From the IMG/VR virus record IMGVR_UViG_3300019828_000708, positions 1-20,661 of that record: a stretch of DNA of 20,661 bases. One strand, written 5' to 3'. The stretch's first letter is position 1; the number at the start of each line of letters is the position of its first letter. Of this stretch, positions 6,963-16,829 are shown one piece after another. The notes below the pieces were generated by a model. It did not search any database, was not told where the DNA came from, and saw nothing but the letters and a program-made list of their open reading frames with translations. Origin of the DNA: a virus. The translations under genes were made by a program, and so were the position numbers.

Positions 6963-7481
6963 ATGACTAATAACAAAAATAAAAATCAAATGATATTCAC
7001 CACCAAGTTGGTTGAATCTGTAACACAGGATATACATGATGCTATTCCAGTTAAGAGGTTCAGAAACCCTTGGATGAAAAGTGAAGTCGGTATAAGAAGA
7101 TCTGGTGTTGTTTTTCGAATGAGTGATGAGGAACAGGCTGAGTATGTCAAGTGTGCGTTAGATATAAATTATTTTACTGAGAAATATTGTAAAGTTAAAA
7201 CAGATGATGGGTCAATAGGTAATATAAAATTAAGGGATTACCAATCTGATATAATGAATTCATTTGTAAAGAATAGATTCAATATATTAATGGCAAGTAG
7301 GCAAGTTGGAAAATGTTTTTTTTTCAATACAATTATATCCGTTGAAACCAATAATCAGCAATATGAAACTAGAATAGGAATTCTTTATTATTCAATGGTT
7401 TCAAAGGAAAGAAATTTAACTATTTTAGAGAAAATTAAAATAAAATTATATGATTTATTATTCATTTTAGAAAAACATTAA
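6963..7481 (+). CDS. Large terminase N-terminal part plus split-intein N fragment
   Basis: The ATG at 6963 (MTNNKNKNQMIF) is preferred over the upstream ATG at 6912, which overlaps the start of the divergent gene. Residues 1-117 are the N-terminal part of a gp17-like packaging ATPase, with LRDYQSDIMNSFVKNRFNIL followed by the Walker A beginning MASRQVGK. The normal next residue, Thr, is replaced by Cys at 7314, which opens an intein: CFFFNTIISVET is block A. The intein fragment runs 55 residues and ends at a stop at 7479-7481. The missing Thr and the rest of the ATPase are on the separate gene at 8540, so the active motor should need protein trans-splicing. An AATATATATA element lies 17 bases upstream. 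Confidence 0.85.
   Translation: MTNNKNKNQMIFTTKLVESVTQDIHDAIPVKRFRNPWMKSEVGIRRSGVVFRMSDEEQAEYVKCALDINYFTEKYCKVKTDDGSIGNIKLRDYQSDIMNSFVKNRFNILMASRQVGKCFFFNTIISVETNNQQYETRIGILYYSMVSKERNLTILEKIKIKLYDLLFILEKH
7314..7478 (+). other. Split intein N fragment (IntN, 55 aa)
   Basis: It begins with the nucleophile Cys directly after the extein residues GK of Walker A and carries block A (CFFFNTIISVE). A helical segment follows, KERNLTILEKIKIKLYDLL. Block B is absent and lies on the C fragment, so the split is unusually close to the N-terminus, as in the AceL-TerL and VidaL inteins rather than canonical split inteins. A T9 run encodes the Phe residues but the frame is kept. Confidence 0.8.
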
Positions 7482-7508
7482 CCGACTTGAAAGGAAGCCA
7501 TAATTTTT

Positions 7509-7518
7509 TTAATATATA
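7509..7518 (+). promoter_or_regulatory. TTAATATATA motif upstream of the homing endonuclease
   Basis: Exact match ending 4 bases before the ATG at 7523, in the 41-base gap after the intein N fragment. It suggests the endonuclease is expressed as its own gene. Confidence 0.5.
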
Positions 7519-7522
7519 GGTT

Positions 7523-8502
7523 ATGAAAATTAAAATAAACGACAATACTGATACAGTCACATGTAGAATATGTGGAGAACAGTGTAAAAGAATATATGGT
7601 AAGCATTTAAAATTTAAACATTATAATATGACCACAAAGGAATATAAAAAAATGTTTATTGGTGCCCCAATAATGGCTTTATCTGATAAAAAGAATACTA
7701 CAAAAAATTCCGGAAAGCATATGAAACAAGAAAAATATAAAAAAATGTTTTCAGAAAAAATGAAAGGAAATAAAAATCCAAACCATAAAAGTAAAACAAC
7801 TAAATTAGAAAGGAAATCAAGAAGTCCATTTTCTAAAGATTTCATTAAATATGTTGATATTGAGAATAAAAAAGAACACATAAGTTTATTTGTAAAAGAA
7901 TCTATAAAAGATAGAGTCTCTGATACCACATTACAATACTATTTAGATAGAGGGTACTCTTTGGGTGAATCTGAGATTCTATTAAAAAATAGACAAACAA
8001 CATTTTCTATGGGTATATGTATTGAGAAATATGGAGAAAAGGAGGGCAAAAAAAAGGTGGATTGATAGACAAGAAAAATGGACTAAATAATTATAAAAAA
8101 GTTAATTATAGCCAAATAAGCCAAGAAATGTTCATAAGTATGTATAATGAATTATTAAATATAGGATTTAATGATAAAGTTTTTTTCGCAAAATTAGATA
8201 AAGATAATAATATTCATAATACCAATAAGAATTATGAATATAGATTAAGATTAAAAGATTCTTATATCTTGCCTGATTTTTATATACCATCATTAATGTT
8301 GATAATTGAATTTGATGGAACTTACTATCACAGGAATAATAAAGAAAATAAAAAAAGAGAAATTAATAGAGATAAAAATATTAAAGAATCTGGTTATTCA
8401 GTATTACATATATCAGAAAAGGAATATAATAATAATAAGGAATTATGTGTTTTAAAAACAATAAATTATATTTTAAAAATTAATAAATCAAAAAATGCTT
8501 AG
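7523..8502 (+). CDS. Free-standing Vsr-like (EDxHD) homing endonuclease between the terminase halves (two frame breaks)
   Basis: The N-terminal part has a MucR/Ros-like zinc-finger pattern, CRICGEQC...HLKFKH, followed by MTTKEYKKMF. A NUMOD3-like DNA-binding segment around GNKNPNHKSKTT comes next. The C-terminal part is Vsr/EDxHD nuclease-like: LPDFYIPSLMLIIEFDGTYY, then H, RD and GYSVLHISEKEY. Frame changes occur at the A8 run at 8048-8055 and again near 8085. Repairing both gives about 325 aa, with RWIDRQEKWT across the join. The gene lies exactly between the two split-intein genes, the arrangement described as fractured genes in phage metagenomes. Such nucleases cut alleles lacking the insertion and spread it. 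The frame breaks could be assembly errors or decay, since nuclease activity is dispensable. Confidence 0.75.
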
Positions 8503-8539
8503 AATTTTTAAAAGGTGTTTAATTTATTTAATTAAAAAA

Positions 8540-8944
8540 ATGATTGAATTTATTGAATTATATGAATATAAAAAAATCTCATTAGATGAGTGTGATATAA
8601 ATAAAAAAATATTAAACTCAATATCTCTTATGGATTTAAAGGTAGAGACTGATACAGGATATGAAACATCATCTAATATACACATAACACAACCATTTAA
8701 ACACTATAATATTGAAACGGTTGATGGTTATGAAATAATATGTGCTGATAATCATATATTATTTGATGAGGAATTCAATGAAGTATTTACAAAGGATTTA
8801 AAAATAGGAGATTTAATTAAAACAAAAAATGGCAACAGTGTTATCAAGAGTATTTATATAGACACACATAAGTCATCCATGTTTGACCTAACAATAGACC
8901 ATCCAAACCACAGGTTCTATACAAATGGTATACTTTCACATAAT
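8540..8944 (+). other. Split intein C fragment (IntC, 135 aa)
   Basis: It carries a block B-like segment, VDGYEIICADNHILF, with the conserved His but ADNH in place of TxxH. Next come LKIGDLIKT, block F (MFDLTIDHPNHRFYTNGIL) and block G ending SHN. The C-extein then starts with Thr, a valid splicing nucleophile. These are all the residues expected for a functional trans-splicing C fragment. Confidence 0.85.
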
Positions 8945-10768
8945 ACGATATCATCTTCTATATTCTTATTACACTCAATTTTATTCAGTAATGATAAGAA
9001 TATTATGATAGTAGCCAATAAGGGAGATACCGCTATTGAGATTGTTGATAAAATAAAGTCTATTTATACGTTACTTCCTTTTTTCTTAAAACCTGGTATA
9101 AAAGTCTGGAACCAAAAATCGCTAACTTTTGAAAATGGATGTAGAATAAAAACAGCAACAAGAACAAAAACACCAGCGATTGGTTTTACGATTGATATAC
9201 TCTATTTAGATGAGTTTGCTCACATACCATCAAATATTATAGTTCCTTATTATACTGCGGTTTATCCAACTGTATCAGCTATAAAAAACTCTAAAATAAT
9301 AATAACATCTACTCCAAATGGAATGAATCTATTTCATAAGTTATTAACAAATGCTGAAAGACCCGATGGTGATCCTTTGAAAAATAACTTCAAAGCTTCT
9401 AGGGTATATTGGTATCAAGTTCCTGGTAGATTTGTCACATATATAAGATTAAATGAGCACAAACTACACGAAAATGATACAACAAAAGAAGAAGTACTTG
9501 AAATAGTAAAAGATAGATTTGGTAAGGACACTAAAGTAAGTATGAGTTGGAATATAGATTTACAAAAAAATGTTATAAGTGTTTTGAATAATGATTTGTG
9601 TAGTGATGCTGATGTTAAGGGGCTTAACTTCATAAATAACAAAGGTGTCGAGGTTACTCTACATTCGGTTGGTGAATTAACAACATGGAAAGAAGAAGCC
9701 GAGAAGGATATTGGTGGAGAAGATGCTTTTAATCAAGAATATGGGCTAAGGTTTATTAATGCTAGTAAATCACTATTAAATGAATCTATAATAGAGGATC
9801 TATTAAAGAAAAAGAAACCATATGAATTTGAAAAATTAGACGAATTAGATAGGTTGAAATTTTCTTATGAGAATTTAAAATGGGTACAAGATGATGATTT
9901 ATTTATACCAATAAAAAGAAAAGATTATAAATTAGTAATATCTGTCGATTTATCCGAAGGATTAGGCCAAGATTATTCTGTTATAAACATATTTAGAGTT
10001 ATGTGTAAATCAAAAGAAACTATTGAATTACAGAAAGATTCTTATACATCTGTTGTTGATTTTTTCAAATTAGAACAGATAGCTATTTATAGAAGTAACA
10101 TAATATCAATAAAACAAATGGCTGAAATACTTTATTTAATAACCTTTGAGTATTTTAACCCAGAGAATATAAGAGTTGTTTTAGAATTAAATAACTATGG
10201 AGGTACTCTATTATCAGAAATGCCTTATGTTTTTGATGGTAAGAATGATTATGGGTCTTCTATTTTTGTTAGGTATAAGCATAGAGTTGATGCTACTGAA
10301 GAAAAGGTTGGATTAAAAGTAGGACACAACAAGAACCTATTAGTCAAAGATTACCAAGACCTTATGTTAAGCAAAAGCTTCTCTATAACTAACTTTGAAA
10401 CTGTTAATGAAATAACAACATTTGTAAAACAAACAACTTCTTCTGGTAATGTTAAATATGCCGCTGACATTGGACATGATGATTGTGTAATGACGATAGT
10501 TAATGCTACCTCTATATTTGTTAAAAATGAATTTAAAGAAATGGTGGAAGATTATATGGAAAAAGATATTTCAGTAGATATGAAAAATTATATAAATGAT
10601 TGTCTAAAAAAATCTGATTATTTTGAAGCAGTTGATTATACACAATTATTAGATGTTCGTAGAAAACATTTAAATTCAGTTAGAACAAGAAATAGTGGTT
10701 ATAAAAGCACTGGATTTGGTAATAACGAAAGTAGTAGTGGAGTTGGTGGTGATTGGTTTAAACTATAA
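8540..10768 (+). CDS. Split-intein C fragment plus large terminase ATPase/nuclease part
   Basis: The likely start is ATG 8540 (MIEFIELYEY); an in-frame ATG at 8495 overlaps the endonuclease stop. Residues 1-135 are the intein C fragment and the remaining 607 form the terminase. The C-extein begins TISSSIFLLH, completing Walker A (GK|T). Walker B is ILYLDEF and the coupling motif is IIITSTPNG. The RuvC/RNase H-type nuclease has ISVDLSEGLGQDYS, VVLELNNYGG and DIGHDDCV, matching the three acidic positions of T4 gp17. The spliced terminase would be 724 aa, somewhat longer than T4 gp17 (610). It drives DNA into the prohead and cuts concatemers. The stop nearly abuts the convergent SbtA stop. Confidence 0.9.
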   Translation: MIEFIELYEYKKISLDECDINKKILNSISLMDLKVETDTGYETSSNIHITQPFKHYNIETVDGYEIICADNHILFDEEFNEVFTKDLKIGDLIKTKNGNSVIKSIYIDTHKSSMFDLTIDHPNHRFYTNGILSHNTISSSIFLLHSILFSNDKNIMIVANKGDTAIEIVDKIKSIYTLLPFFLKPGIKVWNQKSLTFENGCRIKTATRTKTPAIGFTIDILYLDEFAHIPSNIIVPYYTAVYPTVSAIKNSKIIITSTPNGMNLFHKLLTNAERPDGDPLKNNFKASRVYWYQVPGRFVTYIRLNEHKLHENDTTKEEVLEIVKDRFGKDTKVSMSWNIDLQKNVISVLNNDLCSDADVKGLNFINNKGVEVTLHSVGELTTWKEEAEKDIGGEDAFNQEYGLRFINASKSLLNESIIEDLLKKKKPYEFEKLDELDRLKFSYENLKWVQDDDLFIPIKRKDYKLVISVDLSEGLGQDYSVINIFRVMCKSKETIELQKDSYTSVVDFFKLEQIAIYRSNIISIKQMAEILYLITFEYFNPENIRVVLELNNYGGTLLSEMPYVFDGKNDYGSSIFVRYKHRVDATEEKVGLKVGHNKNLLVKDYQDLMLSKSFSITNFETVNEITTFVKQTTSSGNVKYAADIGHDDCVMTIVNATSIFVKNEFKEMVEDYMEKDISVDMKNYINDCLKKSDYFEAVDYTQLLDVRRKHLNSVRTRNSGYKSTGFGNNESSSGVGGDWFKL

Positions 10769-10780
10769 TTTAAATTATAG
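10763..10780. repeat. 18-bp perfect palindrome across two convergent stops
   Basis: CTATAATTTAAATTATAG is its own reverse complement and contains the stop codons of the terminase (+) and the permease (-). It has no GC-rich stem or T tract, so it is at most a weak bidirectional terminator. Confidence 0.5.
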
Positions 10781-11742
10781 ATGCAATATAAAAGTAAATA
10801 GGCATTCCTATTGTTATGTTTATTGGAAATGTAATTGCTAGTGCCATTGGTAAAAATAAACCAGGATTTGCTTTAGGTACATTTATTTTCATAGCAGCCG
10901 GAACAGCAATATAAGAAGCACTAGCGGCTAAAATACCTAACATAAATCTATTTGATATATCATCTGTGAAAAATGAACTTAGAAAGGTAAATAATATTCC
11001 ATTTATTAGTGGTATAACCATAGCAAAAACAACCGGAAACCAACCATGTGAGAAAAATGATTTTAATTTCTTACCACTGCTTATCCCCATATCTAAAAGA
11101 AAAATCGCTAAAAACCCTTTAAATAAATCATTTGTAAATGGCTTTATTCCTTCGGCTTGTTGATCACTAGCTATAAAACCAATCAATAGACTTCCTAATA
11201 TTAATAAAACACTACCATTTGTAAATGAGTGCTTTAAGTATGTCCATTTTTTTAAATTTACTACCCTTTGAATACATAGCAATCAATAACAATCCCATTA
11301 TAATTGCTGGTGACTCCATAAGTGCCACAATAGCAACCATGTGTCCATGTAGAATCAATCCTTGTGATTCTAGATATGATGATGCCGTAACAAAAGTCAC
11401 GGCACTAACAGAACCATAGGCTGCGGCTATTGCTCCGGCATTGAATATGTTTAGTTTTTTCTTTAAAATGAAAAAAGTATATATTGGTATAATTAGTGAT
11501 AAGCCGACACCAAAAATAATGGATAAAAATATCTCCGGGGTGAATGTTTCGTGTGATAATTCTTGTCCACCTCTGAATCCAATAGCAAATAAAAGATATA
11601 TTGATATGAATTTAGAAGAATTTGGTGGTATCTCTAAATCACTTTTAAACACAACGGCTATTATTCCGAGTATAAAAAAAAGTAAAGCAGGGTTAGTTAG
11701 ATTATCAATTAATAGATTATCAATTAATAGATTTAAATCCAT
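10770..11742 (-). CDS. sbtA: SbtA-type sodium-dependent bicarbonate permease (one frame break)
   Basis: Two overlapping frames (11742-11212 and 11282-10770) together match the Na+-dependent bicarbonate transporter superfamily (SbtA). Removing one A from the A7 run at 11247-11253 joins them into a 323-aa protein, close to the usual family length. About ten hydrophobic segments are visible. Family-like sequences include LLFAIGFRGGQEL in the first half, AAAYGSVSAVTFVTA and MVAIVALMESPAIIMGLLL before the break, and TNGSVLLILGSLLIGF after it. Characterised cyanobacterial members import bicarbonate with sodium; many members are uncharacterised, so the substrate here is inferred. No SbtB-like regulator is adjacent. 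It is the last gene of a reverse-strand cassette. A permease on a phage is unusual. Confidence 0.75.
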
Positions 11743-12099: not shown

Positions 12100-12180
12100 T
12101 TATTTATTTATTTGTTCTATTCTAGTAAAGTTAGAAGAATAAAAATCTATAGATTCTTGTATATATCTGTAATTTATCAC
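12100..12180 (-). CDS. Possible 26-aa peptide between ClpS and the next gene
   Basis: A GTG at 12180 overlaps the ClpS stop codon region and opens a short frame reading INYRYIQESIDFYSSNFTRI and ending 3 bases before the 12097 start. It fills the gap almost exactly, and the composition is protein-like. There is no other support, and it could be chance or the remnant of a longer protein. Confidence 0.3.
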   Translation of the reverse strand: MINYRYIQESIDFYSSNFTRIEQINK

Positions 12181-12455
12181 TAATTAACCTCCATAGTTAC
12201 TGATAAACCAAGAGATTCTAATTTTTCTTTCATTGTTGATATTTTTTCAAAATCACCATATTTCACATCACATAAACCACTCAAATGTACTATATGAGCA
12301 CATTGATTAGCTTGTTCTGATTCGTGATTACACACTTTAATTAGACAATCTATTACCCAATCAAATGAATTAAAATCATCATTGTGTAGAATTAGCTTAT
12401 ATGGTTTTGATAAAATTTCATCAACTTTACTTATTGTTTGTTCTTTAACTGACAT
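12180..12455 (-). CDS. clpS: ClpS adaptor of the ClpAP/ClpCP protease
   Basis: The 91-aa protein has the ClpS core: PYKLILHNDDFNSFDWVIDC, then CNHESEQANQCAHIVHLSG and a C-terminal beta-alpha unit. The LHNDD-NSFDWVI segment is typical of ClpS from Bacteroidota, and the HND and downstream His form part of the N-degron binding pocket in characterised members. ClpS delivers N-end-rule substrates to the Clp unfoldase and blocks other substrates. The short N-terminal extension of about 17 residues needed for delivery is present. A phage copy could redirect host proteolysis during infection, which is inference. A TTAAAAATATATAA element lies just upstream of the start. Confidence 0.85.
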   Translation of the reverse strand: MSVKEQTISKVDEILSKPYKLILHNDDFNSFDWVIDCLIKVCNHESEQANQCAHIVHLSGLCDVKYGDFEKISTMKEKLESLGLSVTMEVN

Positions 12456-15860: not shown

Positions 15861-16829
15861 TTATAGTAATTCTTCTTTTAATTTACCTATTATAGTTAAT
15901 CCCAATACTATTGGGTCTGTGTTTGTTTCTAATTTTTGGGTATAATCTGATATTATATAATTACACTTAAATAATTTATCTATATTTTTATCATTATTTA
16001 TTGACCAATCTATGAATGGTCGACCTAGCATTGATATCATTACATCTATTTTTTCATGTCCAAAATTTGACATCAAAAAGTTATAAGTTCCCTCATAGTC
16101 AATTGATTTATCATATATCATATCATATAACTTAAATCTCAAATTACCAGATATATTATTTGAAGTTGTTGATGATCCTATTTTTTTATAACTTTCAAGC
16201 TCCACGATAGTTTCTCTAAAATCAGGAAACTTTTTGTTACAATAGAAGCCAATTCTTCTTTTGTGATATCTATTTCCTCCACCGGAGCAATCACATCTCT
16301 TATCCTCTTAAACATCTCTTGTTTAAGGTATTTTCTCTTCTGGAGAACTTATATCAAAATTTAATTGTGGTATTCTGGATTTTAAACCACCCTCTATTTT
16401 ATTTATGTGGTTTGTTGTTATTAAAAACCTAACACCAACCTTACTATACTTCTCTACGAATGCCTTAAACGCATCTTGAAATTCCGGAGAAGCCCTATCG
16501 AATTCATCTAAAAGAACATATTTTATATCAGAATCGGACTCCATCATTGGTTTAAATTTACAGAAATTTTCTATTTCCGTTCTTAATACATTTATTGATG
16601 TATATAGTGATATATTTATCTCTAAAAATGGTTTATCTTTTGTGTATTTTCCTACCAATATTCTAGATAGTGAGGTTTTTCCTGTACCATAACTACCATA
16701 AAATATATAATTGCCCTCTAATCTATTTTTGAAATGATCTCTTATTCTAGGTGGTAATATTATATCTTCTATCGTCTTGGGTCTCCACTTTTCCCATAAT
16801 AATAATTTATTTATACTCATAGTAATCAT
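15861..16829 (-). CDS. gp44-like sliding-clamp loader ATPase (two frame breaks)
   Basis: The N-terminal part is an AAA+ clamp-loader subunit: WEKWRPKTIEDIILPP, Walker A FYGSYGTGKTS (Lys51), Walker B VLLDEFD (residues 105-111), sensor-1 ITTNH and an SRC-like LKSRIP. The first frame stops at 16323. Small length changes in the A4 run at 16331-16334 and the A5 run at 16231-16235 restore the rest (LKQEMFKRIRDVIAPVEEID, then KFPDFRETIVELESYKKIG), giving about 322 aa, close to T4 gp44 (319 aa). The C-terminal part is the helical collar. It would load the phage sliding clamp at primed DNA. An essential replication gene broken twice points to sequence error. MSINK, three codons in, is an alternative start. 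Confidence 0.8.

Follow-up and report, generated by a model that had tools for sequence, protein, structure and literature searches.

Fractured genes, in which a split intein divides the host gene and a free-standing Vsr-like homing endonuclease gene (HEG) accompanies it, are said to have been described by Dassa and colleagues in 2009. Natural inteins with an atypical split are reported to be divided either after beta-2 (position S1; VidaL and PolB16) or after alpha-1 (position S2; AceL and GOS TerL) (PMC13014065). The N fragment (IntN) has 16 amino acids (aa) in VidaL, which is split at S1 (PMC13014065), and 25 and 37 aa in AceL-TerL and GOS-TerL (PMC11766414), and GOS-TerL uses Ser1 and Cys+1 (PMC10189870). 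Here we analyzed a virus contig of 20,661 bases (IMG/VR virus record IMGVR_UViG_3300019828_000708, positions 1-20,661; referred to as the window), in which the large terminase (TerL) gene is divided inside Walker A by the two halves of an intein. We consider it very probable that this TerL is made as two polypeptides with an atypically split class-1-type intein, and that protein trans-splicing rebuilds Walker A. An earlier note on the window had likewise proposed that packaging requires trans-splicing to rebuild the P-loop, and our findings support that proposal as an interpretation.

Layout of the fractured terminase gene and its intein

The features of the locus, all on the plus strand, are as follows:
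6963-7481, plus: N-half gene, encoding TerL residues 1-117 followed by IntN
6963-7313, plus: N-extein, covering TerL residues 1-117 through to the interrupted Walker A motif SRQVGK (7296-7313); match to phrog_5989 terminase large subunit, E=2e-18
7314-7481, plus: IntN, 55 aa, from Cys1 to EKH and the stop codon, with block A only
7413-7475, plus: extra amphipathic-looking IntN segment LTILEKIKIKLYDLLFILE, proposed first arm of a docking hairpin; its counterpart in the relative L129 is helix 33-43 in an AlphaFold2 (AF2) model
7523-8502, plus: HEG with a zinc-finger-like N part and a putative PD-(D/E)XK/Vsr/DUF559-type C part, in three frames in the window contig
8048-8055, plus: A8 run, the first frame break of the HEG
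within about 8078-8092, plus: second frame break of the HEG
8495-10768, plus: C-half gene, encoding the intein C fragment (IntC), then Thr and the rest of TerL
8495-8944, plus: IntC, 150 aa, ending in SHN
8498-8566, plus: N-terminal IntC helix LRIFKRCLIYLIKKMIEFIELYE, put forward as the second arm of this hairpin; AF2 helix 2-24, corresponding to helix 48-65 of L129
8744-8755, plus: block B, ADNH
8897-8944, plus: blocks F/G DHPNHRFYTNGILSHN, ending in SHN
8945-10768, plus: C-extein, Thr+1 (8945) and 606 further residues (607 aa), ATPase and nuclease; PF03237, E=9.9e-12, and phrog_2, E=7.6e-27

Most of this layout had been read correctly in the earlier note, and we place its elements at these positions: two TerL genes at 6963-7481 and 8495-10768, the first passing from SRQVGK (ending at 7313) into an IntN that starts with Cys at 7314 and is exactly 55 aa long, the second consisting of an IntC whose SHN ends at 8944, followed by Thr at 8945, with a nuclease gene between the halves in an arrangement that matches the known kind of fractured gene. 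The break falls between Lys and Thr of Walker A, and the intein itself is split between blocks A and B, leaving block B on IntC, whose ATG overlaps the stop codon of the HEG. Once the intein parts are removed, the window protein is collinear from end to end with the uninterrupted TerL of its relatives.

When compared with the fractured genes mentioned above, the locus agrees in having a host gene in two pieces, intein halves at the break, a HEG between them and uninterrupted homologues. Unlike in those genes, the split of the window family lies near the N end and not at the usual homing endonuclease (HEN) site, two nuclease C-terminal types occur behind a related DNA-binding N part, and there are cis, HEG-less and dispersed forms. 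With AceL-TerL and GOS-TerL the family has in common that the host protein is TerL, that block B lies on the C fragment and that the split follows alpha-1 (S2; PMC13014065), whereas its IntN is longer than either of theirs and its intein has Cys1 and Thr+1 in place of the Ser1 and Cys+1 of GOS-TerL. Judged by this +1 residue and not by direct comparison, the insertion site appears to differ from that of GOS-TerL. With VidaL (6vgv) it shares a Cys-dependent atypical split and an Ala at the block B Thr position (CAFNH in VidaL). The proposed atypical split of the AceL-TerL/VidaL class is supported, at a position nearer to S2 (AceL/GOS TerL) than to the S1 of VidaL, and the sizes of the fragments are in keeping with atypically split inteins. 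Block B, which had been called unusual, is not: A, D and His are invariant in the 31-33 aligned relatives.

The window and its relatives carry the features expected of an intein, namely Cys1, the block B His, a C-terminal His-Asn, Thr+1, a Hint fold and intein-free homologues with the exact junction. Cys1 is present in all IntN listed, and nearly all copies retain an SHN end and Thr+1. AF2 models, which were built from the cis and IntC rows (a joint MAFFT alignment scattered the IntN rows), have a Hint fold both for the cis relative L129 (predicted local distance difference test, pLDDT, 82) and for the window IntC (pLDDT 90). These models best match known inteins, VidaL first (Foldseek E=4e-8) and also gp41-1 and others, and VIA-align superposes the window IntC on VidaL with Z 14.6 and a root-mean-square deviation of 2.0 over 108 aa. 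The family profile matches VidaL at E=8e-14, in addition to gp41-1 and the consensus intein Cat, so that VidaL, one of the inteins named for comparison in the earlier note, is the best match in both structure and sequence. In pairs with measurable divergence, the ratio of nonsynonymous to synonymous change (omega) is about 0.02-0.26 for IntN and IntC, including the HEG-degraded pair L135/L136, which indicates that both fragments are under purifying selection.

The position of the split sets the window family apart from inteins in which the split immediately follows beta-2 (S1) or alpha-1 (S2) and no extra domain is present: here alpha-1 leads into a helical hairpin, and the split falls in the loop of that hairpin. 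Specifically, two further helices come after alpha-1, one closing IntN and the other opening IntC (alpha-1 and these two helices are residues 21-29, 33-43 and 48-65 of the L129 model), and the counterpart of the 7413-7475 segment is kept in most IntN. The stretch before the aligned core amounts to about 101 residues (55 from IntN and 46 from IntC) as against 40 in VidaL, in which block A and this core lie about 60 residues closer to each other. We hypothesize that the hairpin, with the split in its loop, would keep the two fragments associated.

Occupied, empty and rearranged alleles among relatives

To place the window among its relatives, two scans are available. The first gave 70 TerL loci, the majority of which are uninterrupted, Lys being directly followed by Thr, and the second, with an IntC profile, gave 80 loci, which after deduplication left 40 distinct TerL sequences with IntN and IntC. 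About 40 distinct sequences show the same fractured layout; they come from many independent assemblies and from published huge-phage genomes. More than 40 relatives encode the same TerL uninterrupted exactly at GK|T, and the window intein is therefore an insertion and not a chance resemblance. Four near-isogenic pairs (L003/L031, L004/L008, L006/L040 and L007/L050) include an allele with an empty site between the Lys and Thr codons. At an identical codon boundary, one allele of such a pair carries a cassette of about 1.63 kb that the other lacks, with DNA identity around the site of about 96% in L006/L040 and about 92% in L003/L031. On the TerL tree the intein state changes at least 12 times, with a minimum of 16 changes by parsimony.

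The synonymous divergence (dS) of the cassette is much lower than that of the exteins in L006/L093 (0.18-0.29 versus 1.62 for the C-extein) and L005/L104 (0.25-0.38 versus 1.24-2.31). Judged by these values, the cassette in several pairs is much younger than its host gene. In L078/L097, IntN and the HEG are nearly identical (dS 0.16-0.17), with a dS of 1.10 for IntC and over 1 for the exteins, an edge which suggests that recombination can stop between the HEG and IntC. Alleles with and without the insertion, together with a young cassette, are the pattern predicted by homing, in which the HEG would cut the uninterrupted terL allele, its presumed target, and repair would copy IntN, HEG and IntC as a single cassette. 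The Ser codon of SRQ, upstream of the site, is AGY in 28 out of 37 intein alleles and in 13 out of 38 free alleles, with TCN in the other 25 of the latter. This bias is suggestive of a possible co-conversion mark or a difference in the HEG target, and we do not count it as evidence because the sequences are related.

The HEG had been described as complete. In the window contig it occupies three frames (7523-8065, about 8056-8087 and 8062-8502), and its homologue is a single open reading frame (ORF) in L003, L006, L007 and others. Sequencing or assembly indel errors are the likelier cause of the breaks, because the SbtA and clamp-loader genes are broken in the same contig, and for the same reason we do not claim decay of the HEG in the window. 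The HEG family profile matches I-Bth0305I (3r3p) at E=0.0015, the L003 HEG matches vsr at E=0.0017, which is below the cut-off, and the C part of the window HEG scores best with DUF559/MTES_1575. The L006 HEG is 64% identical to that of the window in the N part and 26% in the C part, and the L004 HEG matches in the N part only. Two different nuclease C-terminal types thus stand behind a related N part in the relatives, which suggests domain exchange.

In addition, we observed relatives in which the layout has taken other forms. The intein lies within one continuous ORF in L129 and L110. L129 is 92% identical in IntN and about 80% in IntC to the fractured L130, whose HEG occupies the place of the short loop that joins the two helices in L129. 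Other relatives keep the split without an intact HEG: in L053 the fragments are separated by about 126 bp that contain no HEG, the N and C reading frames overlap in L113 and L122, and only HEG remnants are found in L005, L132, L135 and L136. In three independent records the halves are dispersed, although a chimeric assembly is conceivable for G002 or G003 taken singly. The 735-kb genome LR756501 has its N half at 623868-624410 and its C half starting near 611500, on the same strand and 12.4 kb apart, with many genes and no HEG seen between them. In G002 the N half (1878-2291, plus) and IntC (26250-26714, minus) are 24 kb apart on opposite strands, and in G003 the N half (184898-185368, plus) and IntC (115317-115778, plus) are 69 kb apart in reversed order.

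LR756501 also carries a second, shorter TerL-like gene (L166, 699857-701038, minus; 394 aa) from which most of the nuclease part is missing. This gene is unlikely to substitute for the fractured TerL, given that it is shortened and that its Walker A Lys is replaced (SRQMGIT).

Proposed trans-splicing and its alternatives

We propose that IntN and IntC associate, probably beginning with the two helices that flank the split, to form a Hint domain, in which Cys1, the His of block B, the terminal His-Asn and Thr+1 would catalyze trans-splicing. Lys117 would thereby be joined to Thr, restoring the Walker A SRQVGKT and allowing packaging. The predicted product would carry a peptide across the splice junction SRQVGK-TISSS (...ASRQVGKTISSS...). 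The split intein would outlast loss of the nuclease because terL is essential, and its halves would then be free to separate. For several huge-phage lineages, including the 735-kb phage, this leads to a further reading that we regard as evenly balanced between true and false: that the packaging motor has permanently taken up a selfish split intein, with a dedicated helical heterodimerization hairpin, a lost nuclease and terL halves dispersed even to opposite strands, so that the motor depends wholly on trans-splicing across transcription units.

Several points weigh against trans-splicing as we describe it. Splicing activity is deduced from the intein features, and two distant relatives have altered IntC ends (NLN|T in LR756501 and SSQ|T in LR756500), so that activity cannot be assumed family-wide; these two inteins may splice differently or not at all. 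The HEG of the window is frame-broken. The N part of the L129 model is of low confidence (pLDDT 47-71), and docking through the hairpin is therefore put forward tentatively. The correlation between IntN and IntC beyond the relatedness of the exteins is small (partial r 0.17), and we did not use co-evolution of the fragments as evidence because of this weak value.

The altered ends in LR756501 and LR756500 would also fit a dead intein whose flanking TerL halves act as separate non-covalent subunits, and the sequence is compatible with this. The break, however, lies inside Walker A between K and T, nearly all copies keep Cys1, the block B His, SHN and T+1, and omega is well below 1 in both fragments, which makes such an arrangement very improbable. 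Joining at the RNA level, in which the intervening 1.1 kb would be a mobile intron (group I or II) encoding its own endonuclease, has a precedent in the group I introns that split terL in other huge phages (Jug phages, PMC12363816), and Vsr/EDxHD nucleases are also carried by introns. We nevertheless found no Rfam match to a group I or II ribozyme in the intervening sequence, either in the window, even at permissive settings, or in six relatives. The flanks of the HEG are conserved intein-coding frames, and the cis relative L129 has the whole intein in one ORF. A cis-acting intron could not join the halves of G002, which are on opposite strands, or those of G003, whose order is reversed, and we judge an intron to be very unlikely indeed. 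The frame breaks in the HEG, SbtA and clamp-loader genes could raise the suspicion that the split itself is an assembly or sequencing artefact of the window contig; given that the layout recurs in about 40 distinct sequences, independent assemblies and published huge-phage genomes, the chance of this is close to nil. Trans-splicing of a TerL made as two polypeptides is the reading that we retain.

Novelty, phage affiliation and neighbouring genes

The main text of the paper on the 735-kb genome does not mention inteins (Al-Shayeb et al., 2020, PMC7162821), though LR756501 carries the fractured TerL. A literature search, with most subscription papers beyond its reach, found no description of the window intein family. 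The family is set apart from the known systems by its Walker A position, GK|T with Thr+1, by the hairpin added at the split and by nuclease parts that appear to have been exchanged. It also includes cis, HEG-less and dispersed forms and occurs in the largest phages. The earlier suggestion of a distinct member holds in part: the new site, the hairpin and the dispersal speak for it, and the supposedly unusual block B does not. At a single site the family offers dozens of natural split inteins, and the matched alleles, which may be empty, continuous, with or without the nuclease gene, or dispersed, make the steps from cis intein to HEG-split, HEG loss and dispersal directly comparable. In some of the largest known phages, the ATPase that drives packaging should have no activity before it is spliced, and automated annotation will list two broken terminases. 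With its paired helices, the split site suggests how fragment docking may be solved in nature, which is potentially useful in protein engineering.

Related elements were also seen in other genes. In L140-L143, a related IntC with an upstream HEG lies in another P-loop ATPase gene (...SHN|TTIINALSYALYG), gp46/SbcC-like by eye. In L150-L157, more distant VidaL-like C fragments precede SGKS or TGVGKS P-loops, UvsX/helicase-like by eye, with a HEG-like ORF upstream in several of them.

The window TerL shares 72% identity with the TerL of the 634-kb phage LR745206; at the DNA level the window is 77.6% identical to the LR745206 genome, with 11% of the window covered. Among the phages published with it, the largest are members of the Mahaphage clade, for which Bacteroidetes hosts are predicted (PMC7162821). 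As part of our preferred reading, we hold with high confidence that this is the T4-type large terminase gene of a Mahaphage-like phage in fractured form. Three genes of the contig besides terL contain frame breaks: the HEG (two), the SbtA gene (one) and the clamp-loader gene (two). The features outside the terminase locus are as follows:
10770-11742, minus: SbtA-type Na+-dependent bicarbonate transporter gene, with one frame break; PF05982, E=2e-56 and 2e-52 in two parts
12180-12455, minus: ClpS protease adaptor gene, adjoining the SbtA gene; PF02617, E=5e-18
16100-16829, minus: clamp-loader gene (gp44-like), with two frame breaks

The SbtA gene had no match among 50,697 phage records or in a viral_contigs scan, and it is possibly a candidate for a new auxiliary metabolic gene.

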